This document shows, in pieces, positions 14,813 to 50,413 of a stretch of DNA of 64,000 nt. The position numbers were made by a program, and so were the translations under genes. The notes beneath the pieces were generated by a model, which saw nothing but the letters and a program-made list of their open reading frames with translations, ran no database searches and was not told the DNA's origin. This DNA is from Macrolepiota albuminosa (Eukaryota; Basidiomycota; Agaricomycetes; Agaricales; Agaricaceae). The DNA lies in the NCBI GenBank assembly GCA_027475525.1, contig JAMWFC010000049.1:5130947-5194946 (forward strand). The letters run 5' to 3'. Numbering within the stretch: the stretch's first letter is position 1; every line of letters begins with the position of its first letter.

Positions 14813-14882
14813 GTATATAGACTGTTTTTCAGGGCCTCTATGTTTGTTTTTTTTTTTTTCAAAAACTGGATTTTAGTCACGT

Positions 14883-15925
14883 TGATAGGCTTCTACTTGG
14901 ACTGAGCGCATCAAGGGACATTATAGGCCGACCAACACTTGACACACTAGAGACTCTAGCGACCAGCCTTGGGTACAGAGCAGCCCTAGCACGGGTGCTC
15001 TATGGCAAGACTTATCCATTCATCTCAATCACCAGTACCAGCCCCTCAGCGCCCTCCACTCAGTTACTTTGGAGAACAAGAAGACTCAGAACTCATAGCG
15101 CTAGCACAACGGCGGAAGGTGACTCTGACCAAACCCCGATCAGTACTGAAAGGAGTTAGCAATTGGCGTTGTCAATCACCGAGGCACCTCAATCAGAAGT
15201 CTAAAAGAATCAATGACGACGAGACAGGATACACGCAGACCCAACATTTAAATCTATCAAAAGATGGTACAATGTTTAGCGCCGGAATTAGCGCTCACAG
15301 CGTCTGTCGAGGATTCCCTGACCATACCCCGGGATGGCATAGCCAATTAAATTACATCAAAAAGTGAGCAAACTCGTACCACTTCTAAGTAGTTTTCGAG
15401 TCGCCGTTGGTCGCCATCACCCATGTGCTGCAGATCGCCGTTGACAGGTGGCCGTTAGCTACAGTCACGAATAGAGGCGCTAATTGGTAGCGCCATCAAT
15501 GGACTTATTTTGGAAATAATGTAGTGCATAGTATAAAAACTAGCTACTTGCCATGTATATAACAACGAATTGTAACCTCTTGAGCACCCAGTTACACTTA
15601 GTGTTCAAATCGCGCTAGCATTGCCTGACTTTGTCACCAAGTTCGGCGCTAGCTTCGTCTATCTCGTCTTCGTTGTTTACGGTGCCACCTACGGGCACGC
15701 TACGCTGCGCTATTTGTTTATTTCTCTATAACTTCTCCTAAACTACGACACTTACTACTTGCTAGGTAGCACCCGAGGCGCTATCGTCTAGCGCATCACC
15801 CTATCACCTCTGCTCGAGCACACCGGGACCCTGCCAGGACTCCTCACAAACCCGTACGCCAGGCGCTGGAGATGGCGTTGTACTGCATATACGTCCAGCG
15901 CACCTAACCACAGTTGGCGTCATCA
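14883..15925 (+). repeat. Element A 5' LTR
   Basis: Starts TGATAGGCTTC and ends GGCGTCATCA, matching 50560-51602 base for base apart from about 15-20 substitutions. The termini TGATAGG and GTCATCA are shared with the otherwise different LTRs of C and D. It must contain promoter and polyadenylation signals, but none was assigned. Flanked on the left by the target duplication ACGT. Confidence 0.93.
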
Positions 15926-23272: not shown

Positions 23273-23669
23273 TCCAAAGAACTTAACAACGCTAGGCCCA
23301 GAAATCTCAGATATATACCTAGCGACATTATGCAGGGTCGAAGGGACTTAGGAAACAGAACTTATGCGGCACCATCACGAGGACGCGACAACAACGATAT
23401 ATTTCATATAACAACGGCAGAAGAAGCAAAAAGCTGGGAATATGTTAGGCCGGTGGCGCTGCGAAGAAGATGGGATCGCCTCACTCAAACAATAGGGGGG
23501 GGGAAGAAAAACAACACGCGACAGGTCAAGAAGGGCCGAACCAAGAAATACGCTTGCTAACAACCGTCGGCCCCTCGAGGGGACCACGAAAGAGACGAGC
23601 GCCGGTATACTTGCGAGGGGACTAGGAGAAAAGAGCCGTTAGACACGGAAGGAGAGGTGATGGCTCAGT

Positions 23670-24047: not shown

Positions 24048-24535
24048 TGCGAAGACTGATGGAATCGAGTTGATGCATAAGTAATTTATAGGACACGGGA
24101 AGTGTTTCGATTAGCGACAGCATGGGAGGACTTTTCTCAAGGAGCCAGGACCCTAACAGGAGCACTAGCCAATCAAAAGTGTTTAACTTATTCTGGGTCC
24201 CTCCAAAAAGGGAATCGACATTCGATGTTCAGTGCTTACTCACAACTGCGCTAAACGGGCATAAGCAATCACTGGTTTTCTATTTCTTTATACGCGCTAC
24301 TTCTTACATGGATCCGCTTATTTATTTCCAGACAGTTCCTATTTTCTACTTAGGCTGGCGCGGTAATGGCTATTGGACTGCGTTGGCAAAGGGGTTTTTG
24401 CGCTGTGATGATCTACTGAGCGTTTCCCCTTTTTACTTATTTTTCTTTTGATTACTTACAAACTGACAATTTGAAGCAAGGGGGGGGGCGTTTATTTTAG
24501 CATCACACACTACAAAGTACGTATCAAATGACAAA
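24048..24535. other. Element A spacer, no gene supported
   Basis: Probable promoter side of antisense gene 2a and 3' side of the long accessory gene. A plus-strand ORF at 24122-24451 has no recognisable motif. A run of nine or ten G occurs near 24480. Ends with ACAAA, the left target duplication of the solo LTR. Confidence 0.4.
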
Positions 24536-25403
24536 TGTCACGACCCCTCCCCTCCGGGCCCACCCCGGGACACCCCCGGAACACCCTCCGGGACCCTCCC
24601 TCCGACCCCACAGGACACGCCCCGCCATCACGACCGCCGACACCGCCATCACGCGCATCAAGGACCGCCATCAGCCGTCTCCAGCCCCGATCAACGATCC
24701 GATCACGCGAGGACCCTCCCTCCGACCCCACAGGACACGCCCCGCCATCACGACCGCCGACACCGCCATCACGCGCATCAAGGACCGCCATCAGCCGTCT
24801 CCAGCCCCGATCAACGATCCGATCACGCGACTCGTGCCAGCCATCACGCATCACGCATCACGGCTCCATCCGCGCCAATTGATCGCGCACCCCACACGCG
24901 CGATCCCGGTATACAGCCCCTGCCGCTACTCAATGACCCCCGGAACCCATCCCAGACATCCCGGAACCCCGAGACCCGGTCCCGTAGTACTTATAGCGTA
25001 GTCCCTCGTTGTATTCGCTAGTCTTGATATTACATACTTTGCATAACTGTTACTTGGATATTGCGTGCCCTCTGTTTGACTGGTACGCCTCGTTTGGTAC
25101 GCTTCGACTGGCACGCCTTAGTATTCGCGTGCTCTAAGCTTTGGTACGCACTTCGCGACTCTTAATTTACTGACTTGGTCTCGTCTTAGAACCTCCGGTT
25201 CACGACTCGACCCCCTCTAGCTCCCAGCCACTCTCATCCAAAACCCCCGGACTCTAGTCCCCTCTCCCGGGATTACCCCTGTCCTCGTCTTGAACCCCGG
25301 AGTCCTAGCCCCGGAGTTCCAGACACCCGAGTATCCGTAGATCAAGTCCGCATCGTAAGGGCGTCGCTTTCCCGGAAAGCCCCCGATTCAGCGGAACCTG
25401 ACA
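24536..25403 (+). repeat. Solo LTR of an unrelated retrotransposon
   Basis: 868 bases from TGTCACGACCCC to CCTGACA, flanked by the perfect five-base duplication ACAAA (24531-24535 and 25404-25408). No internal region remains, so it arose by recombination between two LTRs. It is inserted in element A, between its antisense genes. A related decayed LTR occurs at 52176-52769. ORFs inside it are by-products of its GC-rich repeats. Confidence 0.88.
24591..24830 (+). repeat. Perfect 120-base tandem duplication in the solo LTR
   Basis: Bases 24591-24710 recur at 24711-24830 with no difference seen. The related LTR at 52176-52769 has only one copy, so the duplication is specific to this copy or its parent. 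Confidence 0.95.
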
Positions 25404-25442: not shown

Positions 25443-25692
25443 CTATGGATCATACTCAGGAAGGGCGGGATCGCCCAAAGGAAGCAAGTCCCCGTCCTGG
25501 ATCCCATTGCTCGTCTGCCACTCAAGCACAGCCATAATATTGTCATGGAGCTCGAGCAAGAGGCGCTCGCGGCAAGCTAAGGTGGAAACATGAGGACGCA
25601 GGTTGGCAAGTTCGCAACCAACGACTTCGGTCACATCCTCGATATGGCAAAGTTGCTGGCGAAGGTCGGCAGAGGGACGGAGAGGAGTAACG
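25443..25692 (-). pseudogene. 3' end of element A's antisense accessory gene, cut off by element C
   Basis: Minus-strand frame ending at 25443 with EWQTSNGIQDGDLLPLGDP. It matches the C-terminus of the accessory proteins of C (near 29100-29220) and D (near 33690-33800), which share the WQxxNxxxxGDLLP pattern. Upstream it runs directly into the LTR of element C at 25693. The other end of C (48151) continues the same gene in the same frame once the four-base target duplication is allowed for, so this is the tail of the gene starting at 50413. Confidence 0.85.
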
Positions 25693-26628
25693 GTGATGAC
25701 GCCCAAAGTTTGGTCAGTAACAAATGTAACTTAAGTGTTACCGTACCAAGAGTTTGCGTTGGGCGCGCTATAAGTGATTTGAGGAGTCCTGGGCAGGTCC
25801 CAGAGAACGCGTCTGTGGAAAAGGGGGAAAAGTCGGTAACGGGTGTCAGCAAGTGTAAAGCGCTAAGGTAAAGCGCCTAGGAAGAAGCGGTAAGTGAACA
25901 CGGCAAAGGTAAGCGGCAAGAGCACGATAAGCTTAGCGAGGTCTAAGTGTCGATAATGCCTGCCGTAGTTGCAAGGCGCGAGGGTGTCGTATGATAGTGA
26001 GAGTCTGCAACTGCCAACGAGTTCGACGTTGCCGACCGTAAATGAGCTCTTGAGCGTAAGGGAGACTGAAGTAAGTGGGGGAACTCTGGTCTATTCGTCT
26101 GATGATGTATGTACAAGTCGGTAAGTAATATATATACTACAAGGAGTTCACCGTCGCCAGTGACCAACCATTGCCAAAGTGCGGTAAACTGGAAAATTTC
26201 ATAGGGGTAGCTCCAACGGTTTCAGATCCCTACCGTCCTTTGAGGACCCTTGGCGCCACCCGGCGGCAGATCGCAGTGCTAAACCATCAATCCATCACTC
26301 TTCTGTCTGTCAGAACCCCTAAGCGATGTTAAGCGCCAAATCGAGACGCTAAGCGGTGTCAGACGCCAAGGTCAAACGCCAAGCTGTCCGTCAGTTTTTG
26401 ATAGATCATCAGGCTTCTCGCTAAGCGCTGTCGTCAGTGACTGATGCCATCTGTCAGTTGTCATTCTTGCTGCCGTCGGCGCTATCATTGATCGGATCTG
26501 CTTCTTGCCGTGCACGGCCGTCAAATATCGCCAAAATTGGATAATTAGCGCGCGCTAAGGTATTTTGAGTCGGTGCCGTGTTGCCGTAGCCTGCCGTTGA
26601 TGCGCTGATCCTGTATGGGGTCCTATCA
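25693..26628 (-). repeat. Element C 3' LTR
   Basis: On the plus strand it runs TGATGACGCCC to GTCCTATCA. Immediately to its right TCTCCCCCC is the complement of a GGGGGGAGA polypurine tract, fixing this as the 3' LTR. ORFs inside (such as 25943-26167) are not genes. Confidence 0.92.
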
Positions 26629-26798
26629 TCTCCCCCCAACTGAAAAATTGACTGTCCTCAGTCACCAAATAAGGCTACCGTTACCGCTTTTGTGACAGGT
26701 GGTCCGTGCGTTCTTGAGATTTTGTTTATAGTCCTGGCGCATGAGTGTGGACTTCGTTTCTCCTCCCCATCTTTACCTGGCACTTTAATACAATTAAA

Positions 26799-29220
26799 AT
26801 GTCCTTCCGTATTCCAACTCCGCCCCCTGTCCCATCCCGTGAGGCTCAAGATGCAGCCTCGGCCTACATCGAGAAGGCAAACAATTTCCTCAAGCGGATC
26901 GATGGCGTTGGCGCCGACGCGCCAGTAAATTTGGTGGTTGCCGTTATGAAGCTGTACGAGCGGTGGTTGGAGGTGCGCGTTCTTGGCGTGGGCTGGGATC
27001 GTGAAATAGAGGTTCGAGAGTGGTGCCGATCGCGGTACCTGGATCATCGTGGCGTGGAGTGGCTAGCGCCTTTTTCTCGTTTTGTAAGTACCTCCAGTTC
27101 TTGCCGTGTCGCTAGCTGATCGCGTTGTCAGGCGCCTCCTCCCATCCCAACGATCGAGGATGAGTTGGAGGACATTTTGTCTGGTGCCTTGCCGATGACG
27201 GTAAGCACGCCAGCGGCAGAGTGAGTATTCCTAACCCATTCTTTTGACTTAGCTTTGGTCTGACTTGTCACCACACAGTAAACAAGAGGTGTTGGCGCCT
27301 TTGGCGCGCATGCAGGTTGCGGAGGAGGTCGCGGCAAGGCAGGAGGAGATTTCTCAGGACGCCCGTGAGATCACCAGGGCGCTAGAGGAGCGAGAGAGAG
27401 TGGCCGCATTGGCGGCAGAGATGGAGGACGTTGCCGCTGGGAAGGCACCAGTTGCCAAGGAACAGAGCAAGGTTTCGCGCGCCGGCAGTGCACAGAGCCC
27501 AGCACTGCCGGCTAGCAGGAAGGGCTCCCCAGTAAAGCCGGGTAAGGCTTTGAAGAAAGTGAGTTTTTGCTCTTGCCGCTGCCGCGCCACGCTAACCACT
27601 GTTTCCAAGTCTCGCAAGGGAAAGGCTCCCCAGTACGCGGTAAGTGTTCTTTTTGGACCTAGGCGGTGTTTACTAACTTGTGTCTGCAGGCGCCAACGCA
27701 AAGTTCCTTCGACGACAAGGAACTGAAAGGTTTACTTTTGCCGCGTCGGGAGGAGGCGGTCCTTGACGAGGGGCAGGAGGCCGGGGTTGTCATGGAGGAG
27801 ATGAAGGGGAAGAAAACTGTTTCCCTGGCGACCCGGCAGGCATTTAAGGAGGCGTGGGGAGCGGTAAGTGGCTTTGCCGTCTCATTTATTCTATTGTTAA
27901 CTTGTAGCGCTAGTGTGACAAGTGCTGGGCTGACAACGACCCAGAAGGCTGCTGGTTCCCGACTGGGGCCCAGCCGTGTTATCGTTGTGGCGCCCTCAAG
28001 CGCGCCTGTACTATCGACGGGGCGAAAAGTTGCGAGCGTGGCGGCGCGCCAGATGCTCTGGTCGAGAAAACGTTCTCGCGCGCTGTTTTGGTGAGGAGGG
28101 CCAGGGAGTTTGTGGAGGGCCGGTTGCCGCTGGAGGAATGGCGGCCATTGGACGTGCCTCCTTGGCGTTGCCGACGTGCCAGGGAGATGGGACGGAAACA
28201 GTCGGCAACCAAGGCGCCGGCGAGCGCCAAGGGACTTCGGTCCCAGAAAAACGACAAGCCCCTTCCCCAAGCAAGGGGAAGGGCAAAGCAAAACATCCTC
28301 GCGTGGTCTCGTCGTTGCCTTCGCCGTCGCCAGCGCCTCAAGATACCGAAATGGCCGATTTGGAGAAGGCCTTGGCGGCGAGTCGCCTGCCTCCTCGCGA
28401 TTCTGAGGCGGGCCCAAGTGGCCTCCTGTCGCCTATCCATTTGGCGGCGAGGTCCCTTGGCGGGGAACAGGAGGAGGGAGAACGGGAAGCGGTTGGCAAC
28501 GCGGCGCCTCGAAAGGAGCTGGAAGAAGCCCCTGCCGACATCGAGATGGGGGAGGAGAAGGCAGAGGGAGCGGCAACGGGAGGAGATGAGGACGCTGAAG
28601 GGGAGGAGGACGAAACCTTGGCGACGCAGCGCCAAGGTGACGAGGAGGTGGTAGCGGGAGAGGGTGAGGGAGAGGCATCGGCAAGGGAGGTAGTGGCAGA
28701 AGTTGAGGGCGCGGCAGGAGTTGCCAGGGAGGAGCCAGAGTGGCACTGGCTACCTCCCTACGGTAACGTTGCCCCCTGGGAAGTCTCAGACCCTGAGGAC
28801 GTTGCCGGATTGGAGCCGAGGCGCCCCATGATCGCCAGGGTTGATCCCACTTGGACTCCCCAGCCACAGCCAACGGTTACTGGCGACGCTTTCCAGTGGC
28901 TGGGGCAGGACCTCGTTTACCCGGTCATTGCGCTAAATCCTCGCGAGATGTTGGAGCGGTATTCGAGGTGGGCGGCAACGATGGAGTCTTCTATGGAGCA
29001 GGAACAGGAATGAGTACGGGGCCAACTGATGGCGCTACGATTGCGCTACTCCAACCTGGGTCGTAGCCTCCGCGTTCTTCGCGATTACCAGGACGATTGC
29101 CAAGCCGCTATGGATTGGCAAACCGCCAATAACATCTTGCCGGGCAACCTCCTCCCCCTTCGCGACTCCTCTCTGCCTGTGTCGGACAATTCCTTGCCGA
29201 TGGATGATGACAGTGATTGA
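26799..29220 (+). pseudogene. Antisense zinc-cluster accessory gene of element C, broken
   Basis: Same six-exon plan as in D: 26799-27083, 27132-27200, 27253-27558, 27610-27639, 27690-27863 and 27914 onward, with five short introns at matching positions. N-terminus MSFRIPTPPPVPS, a REIEVREWC segment, an FDDKELKGLLLPRRE segment, then the cysteine cluster CDKCW, C, CYRC, C (spacing CX2CX8CX8CX2CX6C, 27914-28010), an acidic middle and the LPPYG, WTPQPQPTVTGDAF and LRYSNLGRS segments. Two lesions: about ten bases are missing relative to D near 28115-28125, shifting the frame after REFVEG, and TGA at 29011-29013 replaces an Arg codon. It lies between pol and the 3' LTR on the strand opposite gag-pol, ATG about 170 bases from the LTR. 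Role unknown. Confidence 0.85.
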
Positions 29221-29648: not shown

Positions 29649-30445
29649 CTAATCGTTTTCTCCTTCTTCAATCAGAGTTGGCAAGTCATCATCGTCCAAT
29701 AGTTCTGTTTCTTCAAGTTCTCTTAACTTGGCGGTGTCGATATCTAGCGCTTCAAGCGGCAAGTCAATGTGTTCTCTGGCGAGATACGGCAATAGGCAAA
29801 AGGCGGCAACAGGTCGATGTAGCACTGAACCATCTAGTTCACAGAGCACGTAAGCGCCTCCACGGTTACGAGAGATAACTACCAAAGGTCCTAGATAGCG
29901 CGGGCGCATTTTCTTGTTGTAGGAGGTCTCGATTTTGGAGTTGCGCATGAGCACTAGCGCTCCTCTTGGGAAGTTGTAATCTTTGATGGTAGCGCTATGC
30001 TCGGTCTCGAATCGCAGGGCTGCTTGGCGACGGGCGCTAAAGACTACCTCGTGGAGTCGCTCTAAATCTTCTTTCCTTCGCTGGAGATCAATAGCTCGTC
30101 TGGCGATAAGGTCGGTAGTCGCTAAGATGCTGTTGGGTGCTGGCTGAAGATAGGTCGCTTCTATAATGTCGGCAGGGAGTAACGGATGGGTGCCAGTAGC
30201 CGCGTAATAGGGAGAGCAACCCATGCGCTTACGAATAGTAACTCTTTCCGACCAAAATACTGAATATGTCGCTTCGCTCCAACGAGACTCGTCGCCATCG
30301 ACTGCCTTGAAGAGCGCTTGCCGAACGTCAAAGTGGGGTCTCTCTACCAGGCCATTGGCACGTTTGTTGTAGCCAGATACTCGAATGTGGTGAATGTTGT
30401 ATTTCTTGGCGAGATATGTTAGCGCTTTGATGATGGGCGCACCGT
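29649..30445 (-). pseudogene. 3' part of element C pol (integrase C-terminus)
   Basis: Continues the pol frame interrupted at 41590. Contains the integrase core after the second Asp (KALTYLAKKYNIHHIRVSGY, the catalytic Glu in ANGLVERPHF), the RYLGPLVVISRN segment and an acidic tail ending at 29649. Nearly identical to 34225-35021 of D. The break is exactly at CCGT, duplicated on the other side of D, so it is a late disruption. Confidence 0.92.
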
Positions 30446-31395
30446 TGATGACGCCCAAAGTTTGGTCAGTAACAAATGTAACAATTGGGTTACCGTACCA
30501 AGAGTGTGCGTTGGGCGCGCTATAAGTAATTTGAGGAGTCCCGGGCAGGTCCCAGAGAACGCGTCGGTGAAAAAGGTGAAAAGTCGGTAACGGGTGTCGG
30601 CAAGTGTAAGCGCTAAGGTAAAGCGCCTAGGAAGAAGCGGTAAGTTAACACGGCAAAGGTGAGCGGCAAGAGCGCGGTAAGCTTAGCGAGGTCTAAGCGT
30701 CGATAGTGCCTGCCGTAGTTGCAAGGCGCGAGTATGTCGAGTGTTGGCGAACGTCTGCAACTGCCGATGAGTTTTGACGTTGCCGACCGTAGCGTAAATG
30801 AGCTCTTGAGCGTAAGGGAGACTGAGGAAAGGGGAGTAAACTGTGGTCTATTCGTCTGCTATCCAATGTACAAGTCGGTAAGTACTTTTATACTACAATA
30901 AGTTCGCCGTCGCCAGTGGCTAATGACGCCAGAGTGCGGTAAACTGGAAAATTTCAAAGGGGTAGCTCCAACGGTTTCAGATCCCTACCGTCCATTCAAG
31001 AGCCTTAGCGACGCCAGGCGACAGATCGCGAAGCTAAACCATCACTCCATCACCCTTCTGTCCGTCAGAGTACCTAAGCGATGTCAGGCGCCAAATCGAG
31101 ACGCTAAGCGGTGTCAGACGCCAAGGTCAAACACCAAGCTGTCCATCAGTTTTTGATAGATCATCAGGCTTCTCGCTAAGCGCTGTCGTCAGTGACTGAT
31201 GCCATCTGTCAGTTGTCATTCTGTCTGCCGATCGGCGCTATCATTGATTGGATCTGCTTCTTGCCGTGCGCGGCCGTCAGAAGTGGCTTAAAATAGGTAA
31301 AATGCGTGCGCTAAGTTCGGAACGAGTGCGGCAAGGTTTCCAGAGCCGGTGCCGAGCCTGCCGTTGATGCGCCTAACCTGTATAGGGTCCTATCA
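30446..31395 (-). repeat. Element D 3' LTR
   Basis: Plus-strand ends TGATGACGCCC and GTCCTATCA. The polypurine tract complement TCTCCCCCC follows at 31396-31404. Contains two imperfect copies of a block of about 31 bases with the core CTAAGCGxTGTCAGxCGCCAA (near 31075-31135). The accessory gene starts 170 bases to the right, pointing away from the LTR, so LTR sequence may act as its promoter (inference). Confidence 0.93.
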
Positions 31396-31564
31396 TCTCC
31401 CCCCAACTGAAAAATTGACTGTCCTCAGTCACCAAATAAGGCTACTGTTACCGCTTTTGTGACAGGTGGTCCGTGCGTTCTTGAGATTTTGTTTATAGTC
31501 CTGGCGCGTGAGTTTGGACTTCGTTTCTTCTCCCATCTTTTTCCTGGCGCTCAAATAAAAAAAT

Positions 31565-33800
31565 ATGTCTTTCCGTATTCCAACTCCGCCTCCAGTCCCG
31601 TCTCAGGCTGCTCAAGAAGCCGCCTACGCATACATCGCTAAGGCCAACCGGTTTATTCGGCACATCGAGGGCGTTGGCGCCGAGGCGTCTCAAAATTTGG
31701 TGGTTGGCGTCATGAAGCTGCTGGAGAAGTGGTATGAGGTAAGGGTCCTTGGCGTTGGCTGGGATCGAGAGATCGAGGTGCGGGAGTGGTGCCGGGCCCG
31801 CTATGTGGATAATCGTGGCGCGGAGTGGTTAGCGCCGTTTTCTCGTTTTGTAAGTGCTTTTAGCCCTTGCCGTGTCGCTTAGCTAATTCCTCCCTAGGCG
31901 CCTCCCCCCGTCCTTACTATCGAAGATGAACTTGAGGACATCCTTTCTGGCGCGTTGCCGATGACCGTAAGCGCATCGGCAACAGAGTAAGTAGCTTCTG
32001 ACCTTCCCTTCTCTAGCTATGGACTGAACTGTCTCCTCGTAGTAAGCAAGAGGTACTGGAGCCTCTTGCTCGATTGCAGATCGAGCAAGAGCAGGAGGAG
32101 GCTGCCGCTGCCGCTGCCGCGCACTCCTTGGCGGTGGCAAGGGCAGAGCTCGCCAAGGAGCAGAAGAAGGAGTCCGTTGCCGAGGGTTCCAGCAAGGGGT
32201 CTCGCGCCGGCAGTGTTCAGAGCCCCACACTGCCGGCAGGCACACAGGGTTCGCCTTCAAAGCCTGGAAAGGCTTTGAAGAAAAAGGTAAGTCTGCTGTC
32301 GTTGGCGCTTCTTCTTACCGGTGGTAACTGTCGCTAGTCTCGCAAGGGGAAGGGTCCTCAATACGAGGTACGCCGTCGTGACACTTTGCCGACCTTTTAC
32401 TGACTCTCTCTCAGCTCCCTAGTCAGACCACTTTCGACGACAAGGAGTTGAAGGGTCTGCTCTTGCCGCGCCGGGAAGATGTCGTGATGGATGAGGGCAT
32501 TGAGGGAGGAGTGGAAATCCCCGAGATGAAGAACAAGCGTACAGTTTCCTTGGCGACGCGCCAAGAGTTCAAAGATTCGCGGGGAGCGGTAAGCAACTTG
32601 TCTTTTATAACTTTTCTTCCACTAGACTGGTCTTAGTGCGACAAATGTTGGGCTGACAACGACCCCGAAAGTTGTTGGTTTCCCACTGGCGCTCAACCGT
32701 GCTACCGATGCGGCACTCTCAAGCGTGCCTGTACCATTGATGGCGCCAAGAGTCGCGAGCGGGGCGGAGCGCCTGATGCCTTTGTCGAGAGGACCTTCTC
32801 TCGGGCGGTTTTGGTCAAGCGGGCGAGGGAGTTTGTTGAGGGGGAACGTAGGGAGGTTGCCGCTGGGAGGGCGGCGAAGATTAGCAAGTCCTCCTTGGCG
32901 CTGCCGACGCGCCAAGGAGATGAATCGGAATCGGTCGGCAAGCGCGGCGCTGGCGAGCGCCAGGAAAAACGCAAGGCCCCCTCCCCAAGCAAGGGCAAGG
33001 GTAAGGCCAAACGTGTACGCATCGAGTCGCCCCCCTCCTCTCCAACTGCTGAGGACACGGAGATGAGGGAACTTGGAGAGGCCCTTGCCGCCAGTCGCCT
33101 CCCTGCCGTTAGCGGTGAGGCTGGCCCTAGCCGCCTATTGTCCCCTCTCTCCTTGCCTGAAAACGCGCCTGCCGACGTGTCAACAGCTGGCGCCGCAGGA
33201 GATGAGGGTGACGTTGTAATGGGAGAGCCCGCTGGCGCGCAAGAGGTAGCTGGGGAGGAGGAGAAACGGGAAGGATCGCCGAGTCGCGAGGAGGTCGGGG
33301 GCGGCAGTGAAGATGCTGAGGGAGAGGCAGAGGAAACTTTGCGGGAGGTTCCTGGCGAGTCCTCGGAATTGCCGGCGGTGGAGCCTGCCGCCCCCTGGCT
33401 AAGCGGCGACCAGTTAGCGACACAGCACTGGTTGAGCTCCAGTGGGCCTTCGTCGTGGACCCCCCAGCCTCAGCCAAGAGTTGCTGGCGACTCATACGAG
33501 TGGCTGGGGGAAGACTTGGTCTACCCGGTGGTTGCCTTGTACCCGCCACAAGTCATAGAGCGGATGGCGGTACGTGCGGCAAGCATGCGTGCAGTATTGG
33601 GTCGCGAACGCGAGCGAGTCCGGCAGCAAATTATGGCGTCGCGACTTCGATATGCCAATTTGACCCGTAGTATGGATGCGCTGCAAGAGTACCAAGCCGA
33701 CTGTAATGAGGCGCTAGAGTGGCAAGCCCTCAACCACGTTCAAGTTGGCGATCTCCTACCCTTCGACGACTCCCTGCCTCTCACCGATAGCGAAAATTGA
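31565..33800 (+). CDS. Antisense zinc-cluster accessory protein of element D
   Basis: Six exons by GT-AG inspection: 31565-31849, 31898-31966, 32017-32286, 32338-32367, 32415-32588, 32637-33800; all joins keep phase, giving 663 residues. Start MSFRIPTPPPVPS. Domain 1 (about 1-95) ends with REIEVREWCRARY and EWLAPFSRF. Exon 3 is Ala/Glu/Gln-rich; exon 5 has FDDKELKGLLLPRRE. Exon 6 opens with six cysteines spaced CX2CX8CX8CX2CX6C, like the fungal Zn2Cys6 cluster (CX2CX6CX5-12CX2CX6-8C) but with a longer first loop. A Lys-rich stretch, a long acidic region and a C-terminal domain (WTPQPQPRV, GEDLVYPV, LRYANLTRS, GDLLPF) follow. It sits between pol and the 3' LTR on the opposite strand. Inference: a nuclear DNA- or chromatin-binding protein, perhaps regulating the element or its targeting. 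Same gene in A and C. No named family recognised. Confidence 0.85.
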
Positions 33801-34224: not shown

Positions 34225-37200
34225 CTAGTCAATTTCTTCTTCTTCAACTAAAGTCGGCAAGTCATCATCGTCCAATAGTTCGGTTTCTTCAAGTTCCCTA
34301 AGCTTGGCGGTGTCAATATCTAGCGCCTCAAGCGGCAAATCGATTCGTTCCCTGGCGAGATACGGTAGTAGGCAAAAAGCGGCAACAGGTCGATGTAGCA
34401 CTGAACCATCTAGTTCACAGAGCACGTAAGCGCCTCCACGGTTACGAGAGATAACTACCAAAGGTCCTAGATAGCGCGGGCGCATTTTCTTGTTATAGGA
34501 GGTCTCGATTTTGGAGTTGCGCATAAGCACTAGCGCTCCTCTCGGGAAGTTGTAATCCTTGATAGTGGCGCCATGCTCGGTTTCGAATCGCAGGGCTGCT
34601 TGGCGACGGGCGCTAAAGACCACCTCATGAAGTCGCTCCAAATCTTCTTTCCGCCGTTGGAGATCAATTGCTCGTCTGGCGATAAGGTCGGTAGTCGCTA
34701 AGATACTGTTGGGTGCTGGCTGAAGATAGGTCGCTTCTATAATGTCGGCAGGGAGTAACGGATGGGTGCCAGTAGCCGCGTAGTAAGGAGAACAACCCAT
34801 GCGCTTACGAATGGTAACTCTTTCCGACCAGAATACTGAATACGTCGCTTCGCTCCAACGAGATTCGTCGCCATCGACTGCCTTGAAGAGCGCTTGCCGA
34901 ACGTCAAAGTGTGGTCTTTCCACCAGGCCATTGGCGCGTTTGTTGTAGCCAGATACTCGAATGTGGTGTATGTTGTATTTCTTGGCGAGGTAAGTTAGCG
35001 CTTTGATGATGGGCGCACCGTTATCCGTGACGATTTCTCTTAGCGCTCCCCAACGGCAGATGACGTCCTCAAATAGCCACTTGGCGACCGCCTCGGTATT
35101 TTCTCTTTGGAGCATTCGAAATTCAGGCCAGTGGATTAGCGAGCAACGACCTTGAATGATGTACTTGTAGCGACCAGATTTGGGCATGTGCATGGTGTCG
35201 ACGTAGATTTTGCTGAAGAGGGGAGCTGGCGTTGCTACGGTTGGCGGTATGAGCACTTGGCGTGTCTGTTGAATTTGGCAGAGATGGCAAGTCCTGATGT
35301 ACCAGGCGATGTCGGTACTAGCGTGGGGCCACCAGAACCGTTCTAGCAGAGAAGCTCGGGTAGCGTACAGACCTCTATGTCCTAGCTCATCATGCATAGC
35401 GCGCAGGACCCGTAAGCGACTTTCCGGCTTGATGACCAGCTTGTGAGCGCCATCTCGATTTCGTCGCCAGAGTCGGTTGTCGGTAAAGAAGAAATGGGTG
35501 GCATAACGGATAAAGGTCGCGTATTGTTCGTCGGTAAGGTCTGGGGGTCGCTTAAGGTCTTGTAGCCATTGTTCAACGATTAACAAGCGACTGTCTTCTG
35601 CTTTTGCTTTGGCGGATCGGGGGACGGCATCGTAGGTCAGGTTTTTGCTGTCTTCTCTTAGCGACTGGGGTTCCTGTACGACTTTTACTGGAGGCAAGTC
35701 TTGTCCAAGGATGCTTGCCGTGTAGAATGTGAGGGGTGCGCTAAAAGTCTCGGGGCGGTAAGGGACGATGGGATGTAACAGGATGCTGGTAGGCTGTTGC
35801 CGTCGTAATAGGGGGATTGGCTGTTGTATGAGGTGCACGAAACCATGTAAGCGGTCGATCCAGTCCTCGAAATCGCTATCAGCCTGAGGGTCCACTACCG
35901 GGTCGCCAGGCTGCCGTGGTCGCCTAGAGAGTCCATCTGGGCCGTGGAAAGAGCTCTTGACGTGTACCAGCTCAAAATGGAACATGAGGATGGCGACTAC
36001 CCACCGATTCATGCTAGCGGACGGCTGGATATCAGGATTCTGCAGCATGCCTTTGATGTACCTAGCGTCGACCTCAACAATCAGGTTCCGCACGCCAATC
36101 AAATACATCTTTAGCGACCGGAAGGCTTTGAAGAGTCCATAGAGCTCTAGCTTAGGCTGACTGTAGCGAGACTCTCTGTCGTTAAGCGTGATGGACCCAA
36201 AGCGGTTGTAGCGTCGCTGTTTCCGATTGTCGCTAAGGCACTGGCACAAGAAGTAGCCAACGGCAATGTACGAGGTATCCACCGCCAAGATAACTGGGTC
36301 GGCAGAGGTATAATCGATGGGAACTAGGGGCTTGGCGTCTTGTAGGGCTTTTACTAAGTCTCGTTGCGCGGTAACCTGGTCTGGCCCAAATTCGAAGGGC
36401 TCGTTAGCGCGAGTGAGTCGGTTAAGGGCGTGTGCGCGATGGGCAAAGTTTTTGACGAATATCCTGAGAACGCCAACAGTACCGAGAAAGGCGCGAACTT
36501 CAGATAAGTCGCGGCAAGGACCCCATCGCTCCAGGAGGGCTAAGCGAGACTCGTCGGGAACGCGACCGTCGGGAGTGCAGATGTGACCAAGTATTTTGAA
36601 CCTTGGCGCGCAAAGGAGGAGTTTGTGACCGCTAAAGGTACCACCGCTATACTTCATACGTTGGAGAACTCGATTGAGCAGCTGGAAAAAATCCCATAGC
36701 GCTAAGCGAATGTTGGAGTTGTCGGGATGGGTCGCCGGTAAGCCGTTTACGAGTCGCCAGTCTTTGGGGCCTTTGACGCCAACGTCGTCGATGAAGCTAA
36801 GGACGTTATGCGGTATCTCGGGTTGGAGGATGAATGTGATGTCGTCATGGAATATGGGGACTGAGTTTGTCCAGCCCATCGGCAAGGTGACTAGGCGCAG
36901 TGCGCCAAACGGAGTTTGAAAGGTGGTGAGGTCACGGGAAGATGGGTGTATTAAGCGTTCATCGTAGCCAACGTAAAGATCAAGGGTGGCGCCACAGATA
37001 CGCCCGGCAAAGGACTCGGCAAAGTGGTCAGGGAAAGGCGGTACGCCAGAGTGTCGTATGGTTACTCTATTCAGCGGCTCAAGACTGTGAACTATGCGTA
37101 GATTGCCGTTCTTTTTGAGAACACAGAACCAACGGGAGCGGTAAGAACTATTAGAGGGCTCGTAGACGCCAGCCTGTATCTTGGTCCTAATAATCTGGCA

Positions 37201-37974
37201 GACCTCGGCTTCGATCCCAGGCGGTAACGGTCGGTTGTGCTCAGTCCACGGCACGTGAGGAATAGTCGGGATTACAACAGGCGGGAAGAAATCTGTACGT
37301 AGGCTGCCGCGTTCGGAGTCCTCCCAAGCGAAGGCTTTGTCTTGCTTAGCGACAAGATCGGTAAGGACGTTTAACTCATCTTTGGTCAAAAATCCTGTGT
37401 CGTGCTCCTTGGCGAACTGCTGCTGGCGTTCCTCGGTAAAACGTCCTGTGGGCTGAAAGGGTGGCGGATTCGGCGATAAGGTCGGCATGTCGGCAAGAGG
37501 GTCGCCAATGATCTGGCGCTCGATTCTAAAAGTCTCGGGAGAGTGCGTAGCGATGGGTTTTGTTTTAAGCGCAACTGGCTTATATTTCTTTTTAACTTGT
37601 ACCCCTTTCCTTTTGGGAGCGTTAGCTTGGTTATATACAGAAGTGGAAAGGGGAACTGTAGCCTGAGGAGCGGCAAGTCCAAGAACGGCGGGAGCCGAGG
37701 CTCCGGGAAGAGTAGTGAGATAAGTATCGGTAGACGCAATGTTTTGAAAGGATTCAGAAGCGGTAAGGTACAAGTAGGCAAGAGAGGAGTCGGTAATATT
37801 TTGATTTTTCTGGGAAGGCTCTGCGTCGGTAGCGGGTAAAGTAGTTAAAACGTCTTCGGCAAGAAAAGCAGTAGACATAACATTTACAAGACCAGTTGAA
37901 TGGTCATATTCTAGCGTTAGCGCCACATCTCCGTGATCGTCGCCAATCACCTCCTCGATGGTCTGTGAAAACAC
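34225..37974 (-). CDS. Element D pol: reverse transcriptase, RNase H, integrase
   Basis: 1249 codons, uninterrupted. The first codon of the frame used here is GTG within the end of gag and no ATG lies at the overlap, so expression by -1 frameshift from gag is likely. Order: linker (1-200), reverse transcriptase with first Asp in LDLYVGYD (Asp332) and polymerase box SFIDD (394-397, Phe instead of the usual Tyr), RNase H (Asp566, Glu610, Asp636), integrase zinc finger (His861, His866, Cys896, Cys899), integrase core Asp926, Asp984, Glu1019, and a C-terminal RYLGPLVVISRNRGG segment before an acidic tail. No chromodomain. The enzymes copy the genomic RNA into DNA in the particle and insert it in the nucleus. 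All catalytic residues are present, unlike in A. Confidence 0.95.
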   Translation of the reverse strand: MFSQTIEEVIGDDHGDVALTLEYDHSTGLVNVMSTAFLAEDVLTTLPATDAEPSQKNQNITDSSLAYLYLTASESFQNIASTDTYLTTLPGASAPAVLGLAAPQATVPLSTSVYNQANAPKRKGVQVKKKYKPVALKTKPIATHSPETFRIERQIIGDPLADMPTLSPNPPPFQPTGRFTEERQQQFAKEHDTGFLTKDELNVLTDLVAKQDKAFAWEDSERGSLRTDFFPPVVIPTIPHVPWTEHNRPLPPGIEAEVCQIIRTKIQAGVYEPSNSSYRSRWFCVLKKNGNLRIVHSLEPLNRVTIRHSGVPPFPDHFAESFAGRICGATLDLYVGYDERLIHPSSRDLTTFQTPFGALRLVTLPMGWTNSVPIFHDDITFILQPEIPHNVLSFIDDVGVKGPKDWRLVNGLPATHPDNSNIRLALWDFFQLLNRVLQRMKYSGGTFSGHKLLLCAPRFKILGHICTPDGRVPDESRLALLERWGPCRDLSEVRAFLGTVGVLRIFVKNFAHRAHALNRLTRANEPFEFGPDQVTAQRDLVKALQDAKPLVPIDYTSADPVILAVDTSYIAVGYFLCQCLSDNRKQRRYNRFGSITLNDRESRYSQPKLELYGLFKAFRSLKMYLIGVRNLIVEVDARYIKGMLQNPDIQPSASMNRWVVAILMFHFELVHVKSSFHGPDGLSRRPRQPGDPVVDPQADSDFEDWIDRLHGFVHLIQQPIPLLRRQQPTSILLHPIVPYRPETFSAPLTFYTASILGQDLPPVKVVQEPQSLREDSKNLTYDAVPRSAKAKAEDSRLLIVEQWLQDLKRPPDLTDEQYATFIRYATHFFFTDNRLWRRNRDGAHKLVIKPESRLRVLRAMHDELGHRGLYATRASLLERFWWPHASTDIAWYIRTCHLCQIQQTRQVLIPPTVATPAPLFSKIYVDTMHMPKSGRYKYIIQGRCSLIHWPEFRMLQRENTEAVAKWLFEDVICRWGALREIVTDNGAPIIKALTYLAKKYNIHHIRVSGYNKRANGLVERPHFDVRQALFKAVDGDESRWSEATYSVFWSERVTIRKRMGCSPYYAATGTHPLLPADIIEATYLQPAPNSILATTDLIARRAIDLQRRKEDLERLHEVVFSARRQAALRFETEHGATIKDYNFPRGALVLMRNSKIETSYNKKMRPRYLGPLVVISRNRGGAYVLCELDGSVLHRPVAAFCLLPYLARERIDLPLEALDIDTAKLRELEETELLDDDDLPTLVEEEEID

Positions 37975-40259
37975 CGGTAGGGTCGTTCGTTGGCGTGCTG
38001 GTCGGTGAACTCCGGTGGCTTAGCGAGGGCGCCTTTTCGTTGTCCCCTAGGGAACGTTGGCACCGTTCGTCGGATTCCGGAATTAGGGTCGCTAATTGTG
38101 AGGGTCGTTTCCTCGTCGGTAACTGTCTTGACGACTGATCGCGCCAAGACGTCGAAAGGTCTGCCGAGTAATAAGTCGTATGCTGGGGAGCGTAAAATGT
38201 GGATCTGAAGATAAAACGTAATGTCGCCAAGGGTGCACGGCACATTCTTGGCGAGGCCTAGGGATCTGTCCACGGTACCGTTAGCGCTCTGCATGTTTAG
38301 TATTACCGTAGGGTCGTAAATAAGGCCTAAATCGTTAGCGACTTCTGCTGCCATAGAAATAATCTGAGACCCGCTATCCACGATTGCCTCTACTTCGTGC
38401 TTGTTGTCTACGGTTAGCGCTACCGAGCGGATAGCGTGCGATTCTTGAGCGACGGTAAGAATTGCTGGGTCCTCTCCATGGTCCACAGACCTAAGGTAGG
38501 TCTCTACTGGGTCCACAGAAGTGGCGTTAGCGATAGGGTCGGCAGGAGTGTCTTCAGTGTCGGGAGAGTCGATGGTAACAGAGAAACCAGGAAGCGCATC
38601 GTCGAGTTCATCAACCTCGGCAACGGCTGTCGCCAAAGGTCGTCGAGGAGTAACTGCCGTTTTCACCTGATTGCGAACGTCGGGAGCAATACTACAAAGT
38701 TCTTCTACTGACAAGGTGACGTGGGTTTTCATGATACGGTTAAAAACGTGGTTCGATTTTTCGATGTCGAAGATTGGCGCAGTAGGTCGGTAGCCACCCT
38801 CAGGACGTTTCTCGGGAGCGGCAAAGTTTCGTTGTGCGGGAGCGTGATAACGGTCGGGAATCCCTGAATAGGGATGGAGAGGCGGCAAAGGCGGTTCGGG
38901 AGCGGTAGCGGACGACGATGGTTCTGAAGCAGGAGCAGGGGCAGTGGCAGGAGGTGCGGCAGGAGCAGGTGTCGGTAACTTGCTAGCGGGAGGCATTGGC
39001 TTGTATCCTTTAAGAGGTTGTTTAGGCTGCTTAACTTCAACCCCATCAAAGACCTGATTCTTTAGCGAATCCAACTCCTGTTGGAGCTTGGCGATACGCT
39101 CTTCCCGCGAAAAAGTAGGGTGGTCGCCAACGCTGTCGAAATGTAGGACCTCGTGAATCATCTGCTGTTGGGTCGCCTGTTCAGGGTCGGGGTTGGCGTT
39201 GCCAGATAGCGTGCCGGTAACGATTTGTCCTGGATTGCGCCTATGCCACTCATCAACTCGCTCCTGGAAGGACTTCTTGTCTGGGTAGTTGGGGATGGTG
39301 GCGCCAGTGGTGAGGACTATCTTGCCGTCGATAGCCCGTCGAATTCTACCTTGGCGAACGTAATTCTCGAGGGTAGCGCAGCGTCCTCTAGTCATGGTAT
39401 GGCCAATTTCCCCACAGAAGTGGCAAGGGCCAGGTGCGGGTACGTTAGCGGGTCGGTTAGCCGTGAGGTTGGTGGTGATCATGGTTTCAATACGCGTCAT
39501 AGCGGAAGCGACAGCGGCGGTAATCGCAGCATTGAGCTCCTCCTTCTTAACGAAGTCGGCAACAGGAGGCGGGATGGGAATGATACCGTTAGTTCGCTCA
39601 GGTGGTGGGCTCGTCCTAGCGCGCTGCAGTCCAACGCCAGTGTCCGTTCCCTTGAGAACCCATTTACCGGCTTCAAAGACGTCGGCAACGTTATAGGGCT
39701 CGTCTGGGTGATGAGCCTGATGAACTATCTCTAGGCGACGGGCAATACGAGTCCACAGTGAAGTCGGGATGCCCTGCTGAAATAGGCGACGCTCCTCGTT
39801 AATATAGAGCTTGCCGTTCTGCAGGAGCCACCTAGCGATTTTCTGGAACTCGCGGTAATACGTAGAGAATGCGCCAAGAGAAGAAGTGCCGTTGTCGAAA
39901 GATTCCTGAACTAATTTCTGCAACTCGTTTACCGTGTAGCGGGTAGCCTCCTCAGCGCCAGGGTACAGCTGGATTACTGCCGTCTTCCAGTCCTCATACG
40001 AAGCGCCTTGGGCTGGAACTGGCGGTGCGGCAGGGACAAAGGCGGCAAACTCGGTCAAACCTGTCCACGTCTCTGCCGTGTCATACGATACGTATCTTGC
40101 CGCGTACTCCTTCATCTGCGTGTGGTCGGTAATGTTACAGTCTCTGAACAAATACTCCAACTCCTTGAAATACTGGGAGAGCTCCCGTGGCTTGGTCTCG
40201 TCCCATTTCGGTGCCGAGAAGTGGTTGCGTGGCGGCATGCGCTGGACTTGTTGTTCCAT
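37947..40259 (-). CDS. Element D gag-protease polyprotein
   Basis: 770 codons from ATG 40259 (MEQQVQRMPPRNHF), the first ATG of the frame and conserved in A and C; the frame stays open upstream without an ATG. Residues about 10-210 form the capsid-like region (PKWDETKPRELSQYF, LYPGAEEATRYTV, RRLFQQGIPTSLW). A cysteine knuckle at 279-294 is spaced CX2CX4HX6C, two residues longer after His than the usual CCHC box. A proline-rich linker follows, then a retroviral-type aspartic protease with DSGSQ and the later LLLGRPFD. The stop at 37947 overlaps pol by about 28 bases in the -1 frame. Gag packages the RNA; the protease cleaves the polyprotein. Confidence 0.93.
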   Translation of the reverse strand: MEQQVQRMPPRNHFSAPKWDETKPRELSQYFKELEYLFRDCNITDHTQMKEYAARYVSYDTAETWTGLTEFAAFVPAAPPVPAQGASYEDWKTAVIQLYPGAEEATRYTVNELQKLVQESFDNGTSSLGAFSTYYREFQKIARWLLQNGKLYINEERRLFQQGIPTSLWTRIARRLEIVHQAHHPDEPYNVADVFEAGKWVLKGTDTGVGLQRARTSPPPERTNGIIPIPPPVADFVKKEELNAAITAAVASAMTRIETMITTNLTANRPANVPAPGPCHFCGEIGHTMTRGRCATLENYVRQGRIRRAIDGKIVLTTGATIPNYPDKKSFQERVDEWHRRNPGQIVTGTLSGNANPDPEQATQQQMIHEVLHFDSVGDHPTFSREERIAKLQQELDSLKNQVFDGVEVKQPKQPLKGYKPMPPASKLPTPAPAAPPATAPAPASEPSSSATAPEPPLPPLHPYSGIPDRYHAPAQRNFAAPEKRPEGGYRPTAPIFDIEKSNHVFNRIMKTHVTLSVEELCSIAPDVRNQVKTAVTPRRPLATAVAEVDELDDALPGFSVTIDSPDTEDTPADPIANATSVDPVETYLRSVDHGEDPAILTVAQESHAIRSVALTVDNKHEVEAIVDSGSQIISMAAEVANDLGLIYDPTVILNMQSANGTVDRSLGLAKNVPCTLGDITFYLQIHILRSPAYDLLLGRPFDVLARSVVKTVTDEETTLTISDPNSGIRRTVPTFPRGQRKGALAKPPEFTDQHANERPYRCFHRPSRR

Positions 40260-40639: not shown

Positions 40640-41589
40640 TGATGACGCCCAAAGTTTGGTCAGTAACAAATGTAACAATTGGGTTACCGTACCAAGAGTG
40701 TGCGTTGGGCGCGCTATAAGTAATTTGAGGAGTCCCGGGCAGGTCCCAGAGAACGCGTCGGTGAAAAAGGTGAAAAGTCGGTAACGGGTGTCGGCAAGTG
40801 TAAGCGCTAAGGTAAAGCGCCTAGGAAGAAGCGGTAAGTTAACACGGCAAAGGTGAGCGGCAAGAGCGCGGTAAGCTTAGCGAGGTCTAAGCGTCGATAG
40901 TGCCTGCCGTAGTTGCAAGGCGCGAGTATGTCGAGTGTTGGCGAACGTCTGCAACTGCCGATGAGTTTTGACGTTGCCGACCGTAGCGTAAATGAGCTCT
41001 TGAGCGTAAGGGAGACTGAGGAAAGGGGAGTAAACTGTGGTCTATTCGTCTGCTATCCAATGTACAAGTCGGTAAGTACTTTTATACTACAATAAGTTCG
41101 CCGTCGCCAGTGGCTAATGACGCCAGAGTGCGGTAAACTGGAAAATTTCAAAGGGGTAGCTCCAACGGTTTCAGATCCCTACCGTCCATTCAAGAGCCTT
41201 AGCGACGCCAGGCGACAGATCGCGAAGCTAAACCATCACTCCATCACCCTTCTGTCCGTCAGAGTACCTAAGCGATGTCAGGCGCCAAATCGAGACGCTA
41301 AGCGGTGTCAGACGCCAAGGTCAAACACCAAGCTGTCCATCAGTTTTTGATAGATCATCAGGCTTCTCGCTAAGCGCTGTCGTCAGTGACTGATGCCATC
41401 TGTCAGTTGTCATTCTGTCTGCCGATCGGCGCTATCATTGATTGGATCTGCTTCTTGCCGTGCGCGGCCGTCAGAAGTGGCTTAAAATAGGTAAAATGCG
41501 TGCGCTAAGTTCGGAACGAGTGCGGCAAGGTTTCCGGAGCCGGTGCCGAGCCTGCCGTTGATGCGCCTAACCTGTATAGGGTCCTATCA
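40640..41589 (-). repeat. Element D 5' LTR
   Basis: 950 bases, identical to 30446-31395 except for one G/A difference near 41536. The right edge meets the target duplication CCGT and then element C pol. Confidence 0.93.
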
Positions 41590-48146: not shown

Positions 48147-48150
48147 ATGG

Positions 48151-50413
48151 GATAGGAGAACTCGTCCCTGAGCCAAGGGAAGGCGTCGCCAGAAACTCGC
48201 ATGGCGGGAGGGGGCGTCCAAAAGGGATCGAACTTATGGAAGGTTAGAAAAGGGGAGAAAAAGGGGAACAAACAAAGACGGACGTACCCGGACAGTTACA
48301 GGCGCACGGGGTGTCCACTCATGGCGCTCGTCGCCGGGGGACATAGCTCTGGCAGAAGAAAGATGGATGCCGTAGGGAGGCAAGTATCTCCAGCGGCGAC
48401 GACGCTCACCTTCCGGCACCAGGGTTCCTTCGGACTCCGGCGCCGCAGAAGTCTCGCGGCTACTAGGAAAAGAAGAGGAGCTATGGGGAGGAGTAAGGGA
48501 TGGAGTAATGGGGAGAGCAACCGGAGTGTCGCTAGCTGCAACCGACTCGGGGGCAGGGGTAGCGCCAGCGTCAGACATAACGACATCTTCGGCAGCAGGG
48601 ATAGCCACTACGGCGGGAACAGGAGTGGGGGACCTATCAGTCAAGAAGTTAGCACGCAAAGAAAAGAGAAGTTAGGAAAATGCGCACTGGTTACCACTGG
48701 GGCCACTCTGACGAGGGTTAGTGGCGATAGGGGGAGTAAGGCGAAGCAGGAGAGCACATACCGCCAATAGCGCATCGGCATCAACAACGGGCTCAGCTTC
48801 ATCATCATCCTCTCCCTCGGCATCCCTCTCAGTGCCCTCCCCCTCATCCGTAGAAGACTTGGTCGAAGACAAAACCACAGGCGTAGCAGGCGCTAGCTCG
48901 CGGCGCTTACCAGGGCTCTTGCCAGGAGACGCAACAACAGGCTTACGTTTCAAAAGAACAGGACGGCGAGGAGAGCGAGCAAAAGGTGCCACCATAGTAG
49001 TACCATCCTGGGTAGTCAGCAGCGCCAGGCTGGCTGCGCTGATTACCGTGGGTTGGTGAGTAGCCGCCAGATCACGTTGCTGCAGCACGAAGTCCTGGGC
49101 GTTACGAACCAACACCGCGCGCTCATAGTTCCTTTGCATAATGGCGTCCCTACCACGTTCACGAGTACGAATCCCGTTGAAGGCGCAGCCTCGTTTCAAC
49201 GCATCGCACCGATAGCAAGGCAGAGATGCGGTAGGAAACCAGCAGCCCTCAGGATCGTTCTCAGACCAACACTTGTCACACTAAGAAAGAAGTCAGCGAC
49301 AGCATGAACCTACTAAGGGGCAAACCAGTGCTTACCGCGCCAATCTTTGCCCTAAACGCACGATGCTCCAAGGGCGCAACGGTAACCTTCTTCTTGCCGC
49401 CCAGTACTTGGACACCAGCCGGGATGCCGGTATCAATGACGGTAGTATCACGGCGAAGACGCAAAAGGTTGCGAAGCTCCACGTCGGTAAACATGGTCTG
49501 GTTAGGCGCCTATCGACATTAACATTTAGGCGCTAAAGTCTAGCGACAATGAGCAAAGCACTTACGACATACAAAGGGGGAACACGAGCAGGGAGATTGA
49601 TCTGGAAGGGGAGAAGTCAGAAAAATGGAGTAAGGAAGATAGGGAAAGAACGCACGGTACGTTTGGGAGAACTAGAGCAGGAGGCGCTCGTTCAATAACA
49701 ATGGCGAAATTACGTGGAGGACCATGGGAAGTTGTGTGCGTCGGACCGGGTCGTGGCTCGCTACAAGAAACGGCAATGCGTTTGATGGCCGAATGGGGAG
49801 GGGCAGTGTGAACGGGAGAAGCAGCGCTTGGGGCAGGGCGAGGGAAAGAAGCAGCGCCACAAAAAGGGCTGCCAAGAATGGAAGGAGGCAGAACAGAAGT
49901 CGAAGAAGGAGGGGCGGTAGGGACAGAAGGAACAGTAGAGGCCGAGGGGGCAGTAGGAAGACTGGCGACGGTGGGAGACGTGGCAACCGACTGCTCAAGG
50001 ATTAACAGTGGAAAAAGGGGGGAAGAAAAAGAAGGACTTACCTCACTGACCTCGGTACTAGCCAACAACACGTCAATCTCGTCGGATAAGGAGGGAGCCT
50101 AGTATGGGCGCTGAACCTTAGCGCCACAAAGCCAAAATCAAACTTAGAAACTTACGAAAAGGTCCGCGAAAGGGCGCAACCAATCGGCACCTTCGAACTC
50201 ACGGTACCGGGCCACACACCACTCGCGAACCTTGTCACCCCGCTCCCAGGAACTGTCGGAGCCGCGGACCACGAGCCAGCGCCGATAGAGTTGCATAATA
50301 CCAGGGACGGTTTGTGGCGCATCGGCGGGACTGACAGACTTAGCGCGATCAAATAAATAGGAGGCCTTAGCCAGGAAATTGCGGAGAGCAGAGACATCGA
50401 AAGAAGTGGACAT
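48151..50413 (-). pseudogene. Element A antisense accessory gene, 5' part, cut by element C
   Basis: Minus-strand ATG at about 50413 (MSTSFDVSALRNFLAK). Exon 1 ends near 50156 at a GTAAGT donor after GADWLRPFADLF. Later exons: about 50100-50043 (DEIDVLLASTEVSE), a Pro/Ser/Thr-rich exon (about 50010-49660), about 49510-49350 (FTDVELRNLLRLRRD, AGVQVLGGKKKVTV), and one from about 49280 opening with CDKCW and the same CX2CX8CX8CX2CX6C cluster as C and D. Two further introns precede WTPPPAMRVSGDAF and DEFSYP, where element C enters. The gene resumes at 25692. No stop or frameshift was seen apart from the insertion. Divergence from C/D is large, but the N-terminal WCxxRY, the VELRNLL block, the cysteines and the LPPYG block are kept, which suggests selection on the protein. 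Confidence 0.82.

Follow-up and report, generated by a model that had tools for sequence, protein, structure and literature searches.

As had been supposed in a preliminary description of the same DNA, Ty3/gypsy elements of Macrolepiota albuminosa carry a multi-exon gene of their own on the strand opposite gag-pol; this gene is under purifying selection. We investigated it in a stretch of 64,000 nucleotides, referred to here as the window, and in genome-wide searches that covered the 100-Mb assembly of 129 contigs. The gene structure, its fixed place in the element, the hundreds of copies of its cysteine cluster, the purifying selection and the conserved splice sites are all evident from the DNA itself, and a near-invariant inverted repeat lies by the polypurine tract, upstream of a TATA-like box. 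Until now, the antisense extra genes of LTR elements have mostly been ORFs of unknown function. With hundreds of copies in one genome, clear selection on the coding sequence of those that were analysed, five antisense introns, a near-invariant candidate site and a cysteine module, the function of such a gene becomes directly testable.

Three nested elements and the structure of the antisense gene

The window contains three related LTR elements, called A, C and D, which are nested: D lies inside C, and C lies inside the antisense gene of A, which it splits between 25690 and 48147 (Table 1). The LTR pairs of D, C and A are 99.9, 99.25 and 98.3% identical, respectively, and all three insertions are flanked by a 4-bp target site duplication (TSD; CCGT for D, ACGT for A and ACGG/ATGG for C). 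Their LTRs, together with Pfam matches to protease, RT_RNaseH and Integrase_H2C2 that follow one another in this order, place them among the Ty3/gypsy elements. RVT_1 (PF00078) and rve (PF00665) gave no Pfam match at E≤1 in the D or A pol protein; the motifs are visible by eye. The pol genes of D (34225-38019, minus strand) and A (18637-22029, plus strand) represent a divergent lineage, with an RT/integrase core outside PF00078 and PF00665.

In D, the antisense gene consists of six exons on the plus strand, opposite gag-pol and between pol and the 3' LTR, with 661 codons and a stop codon, and its five introns of 47-56 nt have GT..AG borders throughout. The preliminary description was right that the gene is open over six exons and gave 663 codons, where the count is 661 plus the stop. 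The location that it gave, antisense and in the stretch from pol to the 3' LTR, is borne out in A, C and D, and so is the presence of the six-cysteine cluster (CX2CX8CX8CX2CX6C; from 27914 in C) and of a WCxxRY block in all three; the GDLLP block which it had also assigned to all three copies is found in D and A, and GNLLP stands in its place in C. The A and C copies are diverged and broken, and only that of D is open throughout in the window.

Further open stretches in antisense orientation, starting MATPSG... and MPTPSF..., lie between the end of A pol and the A antisense gene (22484-24110, minus strand); these could be additional antisense genes and are absent from D. An exact tandem duplication of 120 bp is located at 24591-24830.

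Table 1. Positions in the window of the features of elements D, C and A
Feature	Position	Strand	Remarks
D 3' LTR	30446..31395	-	TSD CCGT at 30442-30445
D polypurine tract GGGGGGAGA (element sense)	31396..31404	-	Inner edge of D 3' LTR
Inverted repeat TTGACTG-TCCT-CAGTCA	31415..31431	+	Near-invariant; candidate operator; also C 26648-26664 (+), A 50524-50540 (-)
TATA-like box TTTATAGT	31492..31499	+	66-73 bp upstream of ATG; TTATAAAA at matching place in A
D gene exon 1	31565..31849	+	N-terminal helical domain (helices from model of homologue P0001); WCRARY and GAEWLAPF blocks
D gene exon 2	31898..31986	+	
D gene exon 3	32043..32286	+	Low complexity, constraint weak
D gene exon 4	32338..32367	+	30 nt
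D gene exon 5	32415..32588	+	
D gene exon 6	32637..33800	+	Holds the cysteine cluster; by eye, acidic and basic/NLS-like stretches; coiled coil at the C-terminus; stop
D six-cysteine cluster CX2CX8CX8CX2CX6C	32637..32732	+	Seen in aligned copies
D pol ORF, 1264 aa	34225..38019	-	Pfam matches to RNase H and to integrase H2C2; by eye, motifs FIDD and D..D..E-like
D gag-protease ORF, 887 aa	37947..40610	-	gag-asp_proteas above cut-off; DUF4100 just below cut-off
D 5' LTR	40640..41589	-	TSD CCGT at 41590-41593
C 3' LTR	25694..26628	-	Partner LTR 47212-48146; TSD ACGG/ATGG
C antisense gene copy, broken	26799..29220	+	Frame change near 28120, stop at 29013
A 5' LTR	14883..15925	+	3' LTR 50560-51602; TSD ACGT; flank 14879-14882
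A antisense gene copy, 5' part from ATG	48147..50413	-	Cluster from 49280 downward; cut by C insertion
A antisense gene copy, 3' end	25443..25690	-	GDLLP block, stop

Copies in the genome and selection on the gene

A DNA pattern for the cluster found 636 sites genome-wide (302+334), and the reversed pattern, used as a control, found none on the forward and one on the reverse strand. Likewise, a 27-nt motif beside the polypurine tract occurred at 383+395 sites with up to three mismatches, against none for its control. The two go together: among the 100 cluster sites listed out of 636, 82 were preceded on their own strand, at a distance of 0.8-2.6 kb (median 1276), by a listed exact site of the repeat motif, and for one such a site lay on the opposite strand; a cluster lay 0.8-2.6 kb downstream of 82 of the 89 exact motif sites that, out of 100 listed, fall within the stretch covered by the cluster list. 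At the 30 loci that match D exon 6 best (L009-L038, D itself included), the C-terminus of pol is present on the opposite strand in every case and the 5' block is in the expected orientation in 29. The exon 6 protein matched at least 126 stretches of the genome, 102 of them stop-free and 24 with a stop, and the A-type protein at least 150, of which 140 were stop-free; these counts are lower bounds, as 107 of 1238 and 150 of 862 candidates, respectively, were scored.

We aligned 41 copies, that is D and 40 of 41 loci, L032 being left out as it is rearranged upstream of exon 6. Of these, 27 are intact, eight have a 77-nt exon duplication, five a premature in-frame stop and one a deletion, proportions which do not give a genome-wide rate because the loci (L009-L050) were selected from matches to D and begin with the 30 that scored highest. 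Exon lengths of 285/89/244/30/174/1164 recur across the copies, and length changes are multiples of three, except for the 77-nt duplications and the one deletion. The splice signals are kept throughout the alignment with few exceptions: the donor of intron 1 is not kept in one copy, nor is that of intron 3 in one (L041), and a deletion has truncated one intron 2. In nine further copies, as in C, intron 3 starts 3 nt further upstream with the donor GTGAG, and for these copies the exon columns hold one intron codon. A fused exon 5-6 junction had no match genome-wide with a pattern that covered only GGNGCN before the cluster, and therefore no processed copy was seen at this junction; a narrow pattern for the exon 4 donor found 16 sites.

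Tandem duplications of about 77 bp occur at various places in ten copies (L012, L016, L019, L022, L025, L026, L034, L036, L037 and L044), eight of which have one in an exon and were left out of the intact count. Duplications of this size are also present at C14:124646/124723 and C46:467971/468048. It is likely that they are k=77 assembly joins, and repeat copies of this assembly may be chimeric through such joins.

Selection was assessed in 18 non-redundant intact copies (153 pairs), for which pairwise Nei-Gojobori estimates made without a tree, the pairs being non-independent, gave a median dN of 0.095, a median dS of 0.65 and a median dN/dS of 0.14 (range 0.017-0.25). The median p-distance of the introns of the same copies is 0.385. 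Exon changes fall on the first, second and third codon positions 227, 166 and 492 times in 609 codons, the third position being highest. The N-terminal block, the cysteine cluster and the C-terminal helix are the most constrained parts of the protein, and its middle is the least constrained. All six cysteines are present in 41 of 41 aligned copies, with no gap or insertion in the cluster, and five of the six are written with two codons; W5, W14, P16 and P21 are likewise present in all 41. Among the 27 intact copies, only the gene's own frame is open in exon 6, and the other frames are never stop-free. For close pairs omega is 0-0.35 where it is defined, values that rest on few changes. Copies seem to recombine with one another because D and L029 have identical introns and yet differ with a dS of 0.22. 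The C-terminal piece of pol is open at 21 of 30 loci, and its pN/pS is 0.064 versus 0.108 for the antisense gene in the ten copies common to both sets; the antisense gene is thus less constrained than the pol C-terminus, which counts against the explanation that we prefer below.

Among the findings that the preliminary description had named as speaking against such a gene are a dN/dS near 1 and a host gene captured once and copied without constraint. Neither holds: the median ratio is far from 1, and the second does not agree with this ratio or with the invariant cysteines. We judge the gene to be a selected gene of the element rather than a passively copied capture because of the dN/dS, the retention of all cysteines, the lack of an intronless exon 5-6 junction and a match in Termitomyces.

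The protein and its relatives

The Termitomyces protein P0001 is 38% identical to the D protein over 98% of its length. Three protein searches together found 21 different proteins, all of them from two Termitomyces strains and with no precomputed Pfam domain. This does not imply that the protein is restricted to that genus, because two of the searches were limited to the 7995 candidates with most words in common and repeat masking may have preceded annotation in other genomes. The Termitomyces proteins align across exon joins 1/2, 4/5 and 5/6, and joins 2/3 and 3/4 lie in poorly aligned stretches. Searches of Pfam, PDB sequences and viral contigs found no credible relative.

The cluster had been likened to that of the fungal Zn2Cys6 regulators (PF00172). 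These have six cysteines in two CX2C..C halves, with the spacing CX2CX6CX5-12CX2CX6-8C, as well as a coiled coil and acidic stretches, and the antisense protein resembles them in having six cysteines so arranged, a coiled coil and acidic stretches. However, its second gap is X8 instead of X6, the loop between the second and third cysteines has no basic character and the coiled coil is at the far C-terminus. PF00172 had no match in D exon 6 (E≤10), in P0001-P0003 (E≤1) or in 24 members of set A2 (E≤10), in a search whose HMMER filters drop most weak matches. The spacing, together with the absence of a Pfam or PDB match, speaks against Zn2Cys6 membership; the protein may nonetheless work like a zinc-cluster regulator. 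Read by eye, the first loop of the cluster (ADNDPE) is acidic, in which it differs from the loops that typically contact DNA, and this too counts against our preferred explanation.

AlphaFold models were available for P0001 and for one partial homologue. In the P0001 model, residues 542-604 form a C-terminal helix of 63 residues with a pLDDT of mostly 96-98, and moderate confidence attaches to the N-terminal helical domain of this model and to a helix that follows the cluster. The cluster itself has pLDDT blocks of about 31-66 in the P0001 model and 35-41 in that of the partial homologue, and Foldseek with the predicted models returned nothing at E≤0.001. The basic stretches seen by eye, the cysteine cluster and the predicted C-terminal helix would fit a nuclear DNA-binding factor, and the protein is best read as an accessory protein of the nucleus that combines a zinc-cluster-like module with a coiled coil at its C-terminus.

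Known antisense genes and possible functions

Antisense accessory genes are known from plant elements, of which Grande and RIRE2 are Gypsy elements, and from Boty, whose brtn gene is said to have been described from Botrytis cinerea, an ascomycete, and Sclerotinia by Zhao et al. in 2011; HBZ, a bZIP protein of a retrovirus, resembles the D gene in being encoded antisense by an LTR retroelement, and homology is not implied. The fungal form with five introns and a cysteine cluster is a new variant. The preliminary description knew of no named family for it and our searches found none, the general kind, an extra ORF that lies antisense in the stretch from pol to the 3' LTR, being already known. 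In plants, such ORFs (aORF-3R) include maize Grande gene23, rice RIRE2 and TRP28 of Silene Retand, and an antisense promoter has been reported upstream of gene23 (PMC7264820). A role in the nucleus or in DNA binding has been proposed for such plant ORFs, Retand is given as a Gypsy element (PMC7264820, PMC11963269), and 97% of Retand clusters are reported to contain antisense ORFs with TRP28 (PMC11963269). As in the plant elements, the gene described here lies between pol and the 3' LTR of an LTR element, opposite gag-pol; it is present in most copies of its lineage, as the plant ORFs are reported to be in most copies of a family, and it is conserved as a protein. It differs from them in its five conserved introns and its fungal host, and neither TRP28 (PF04195) nor any other credible Pfam domain was matched by the antisense protein or its relatives; the plant accounts consulted mention no cysteine cluster, whereas the D protein has one. 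The additional antisense gene brtn of Boty in Botrytis/Sclerotinia, also between pol and the 3' LTR (PMC7264820) and also named in a further paper (PMC8365987), is like it in belonging to a fungal LTR element. HTLV-1 HBZ is presented as an antisense-encoded nuclear protein of an LTR retroelement in PMC11963269. No antisense zinc-cluster gene of basidiomycete elements was found among the titles and abstract openings listed from the open-licence literature in PMC.

The upstream region of the gene contains a block, CTATCATCTCCCCCCAACTGAAAAATTGACTGTCCTCAGTCA, made up of the edge of the LTR, the polypurine tract, a box rich in T (element sense) and the inverted repeat. This block is almost invariant in 21 upstream regions including that of A, with one change each in three rows and one row beginning inside the block, and A and D diverge immediately past it. 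D, C and A carry the 17-nt inverted repeat in exactly the same form although the LTRs of A and D have no exact 12-mer in common (they share one 11-mer; those of A and C share two overlapping 12-mers). With up to two mismatches, it is found in the window only at the three 3' positions of D, C and A and at none of the 5' ends of the elements, and therefore control of the sense promoter would need to be indirect. Lying upstream of the gene start, the repeat is the closest candidate target of the protein. CGG-rich motifs in the LTRs had been suggested as targets before; however, the LTRs of A, C and D have 20, 29 and 33 CGG+CCG triplets, respectively, versus 30.7, 30.4 and 32.7 expected from base composition, so that these triplets are not above expectation, and the conserved inverted repeat contains no CGG.

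Taken as a whole, the explanation that we prefer, and which we put forward tentatively as somewhat short of probable, is a spliced antisense accessory gene encoding a nuclear dimer that binds the inverted repeat and regulates its own promoter. The gene would be expressed as a spliced mRNA from a promoter of its own just inside the 3' LTR. Its introns face against the genomic (sense) RNA and would therefore stay unspliced there and survive reverse transcription, which by established logic suggests why such a gene sits in antisense orientation. The protein would then enter the nucleus and form dimers through the coiled coil at its C-terminus, and its zinc-cluster-like module, presumably holding zinc, would bind the inverted repeat TTGACTG-TCCT-CAGTCAA. 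From this site the protein would control the antisense promoter of its own gene and, with it, the balance of antisense and sense transcription of the element. The NLS-like basic stretches and the acidic middle, both recognised by eye, fit such a nuclear dimer, as do the cluster and the long predicted C-terminal helix. It counts against this explanation that the inverted repeat, which adjoins the polypurine tract, could serve reverse transcription or RNA structure instead of protein binding.

It is also conceivable, if unlikely, that the protein is a nucleocapsid- or Env-like structural protein or an RNA chaperone whose cysteine cluster binds RNA. The acidic and basic low-complexity stretches and the coiled coil are compatible with this, and the polypurine tract, the starting point of plus-strand synthesis, is where the conserved block is found. 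However, intron-containing antisense expression would be an odd route for a structural protein, and gag and protease are already encoded on the sense strand.

The insertion sites bear on two further roles for the protein of a selected gene. For the D-type LTRs, 100 of 445 flanks were listed and 95 of these are unique; their 4-bp sites have CG at the centre in 57 cases, CG, TG or CA in 90, CT in four and TA in one. For the A-type LTRs, 100 of 402 flanks were listed and 98 are unique, with CG at the centre in 55, CG, TG or CA in 91, TA in five and AG in two. The survey read one side per site, both sides being compared for A, C and D. The CpG frequency of the window is 5.6%, and other flank positions have no comparable bias. 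TG and CA middles are likely decayed CG, and the preference for NCGN may be a property of the integrase. CpG-centred insertion is a strong and simple target rule, of interest by itself. One role, to which we give a small chance, is that of a targeting factor, as the preliminary description had suggested; acting at integration, the protein would ride with the pre-integration complex and tether it to CpG-containing targets: both gene-carrying families insert at CpG-centred sites, but the preference is limited to the duplicated 4 bp, as the integrase alone could bring about. The other, which we regard as improbable, is that the protein counters host silencing by RNAi or DNA methylation arising from convergent sense and antisense transcription. 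The tail-to-tail layout would permit overlapping transcripts, and the apparent decay of flank CG to TG/CA would fit cytosine methylation in this genome; on the other hand, the protein has no credible Pfam domain. A combined possibility, which seems very doubtful, is a new class of zinc-cluster coiled-coil proteins with two tasks, recognition of the inverted repeat at the polypurine tract of their own element and guidance of integration to CpG-centred sites; if true, one intron-containing gene of the element would couple its expression to its choice of target. Finally, a chance frame, a functionless host gene captured once and copied passively, or a non-coding antisense RNA locus can practically be set aside: the stops in 24 of at least 126 matched stretches and the 14 of 41 aligned copies that are not intact would suit it, but the low dN/dS, the frame-keeping length changes, the splice sites, the invariant cysteines and the Termitomyces homologues do not, and the codon evidence already contradicts it.

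Elsewhere in the window, a chromovirus-like gypsy element (53982-62962, plus strand; RVT_1, rve and a weak Chromo match) adjoins an LTR of the C/D type; no significant homologue of the antisense protein or of its relatives turned up in this element by tblastn. A likely host gene encoding a GEN1 C-terminal domain (Holliday junction resolvase) is located at 11560-12924 on the plus strand.
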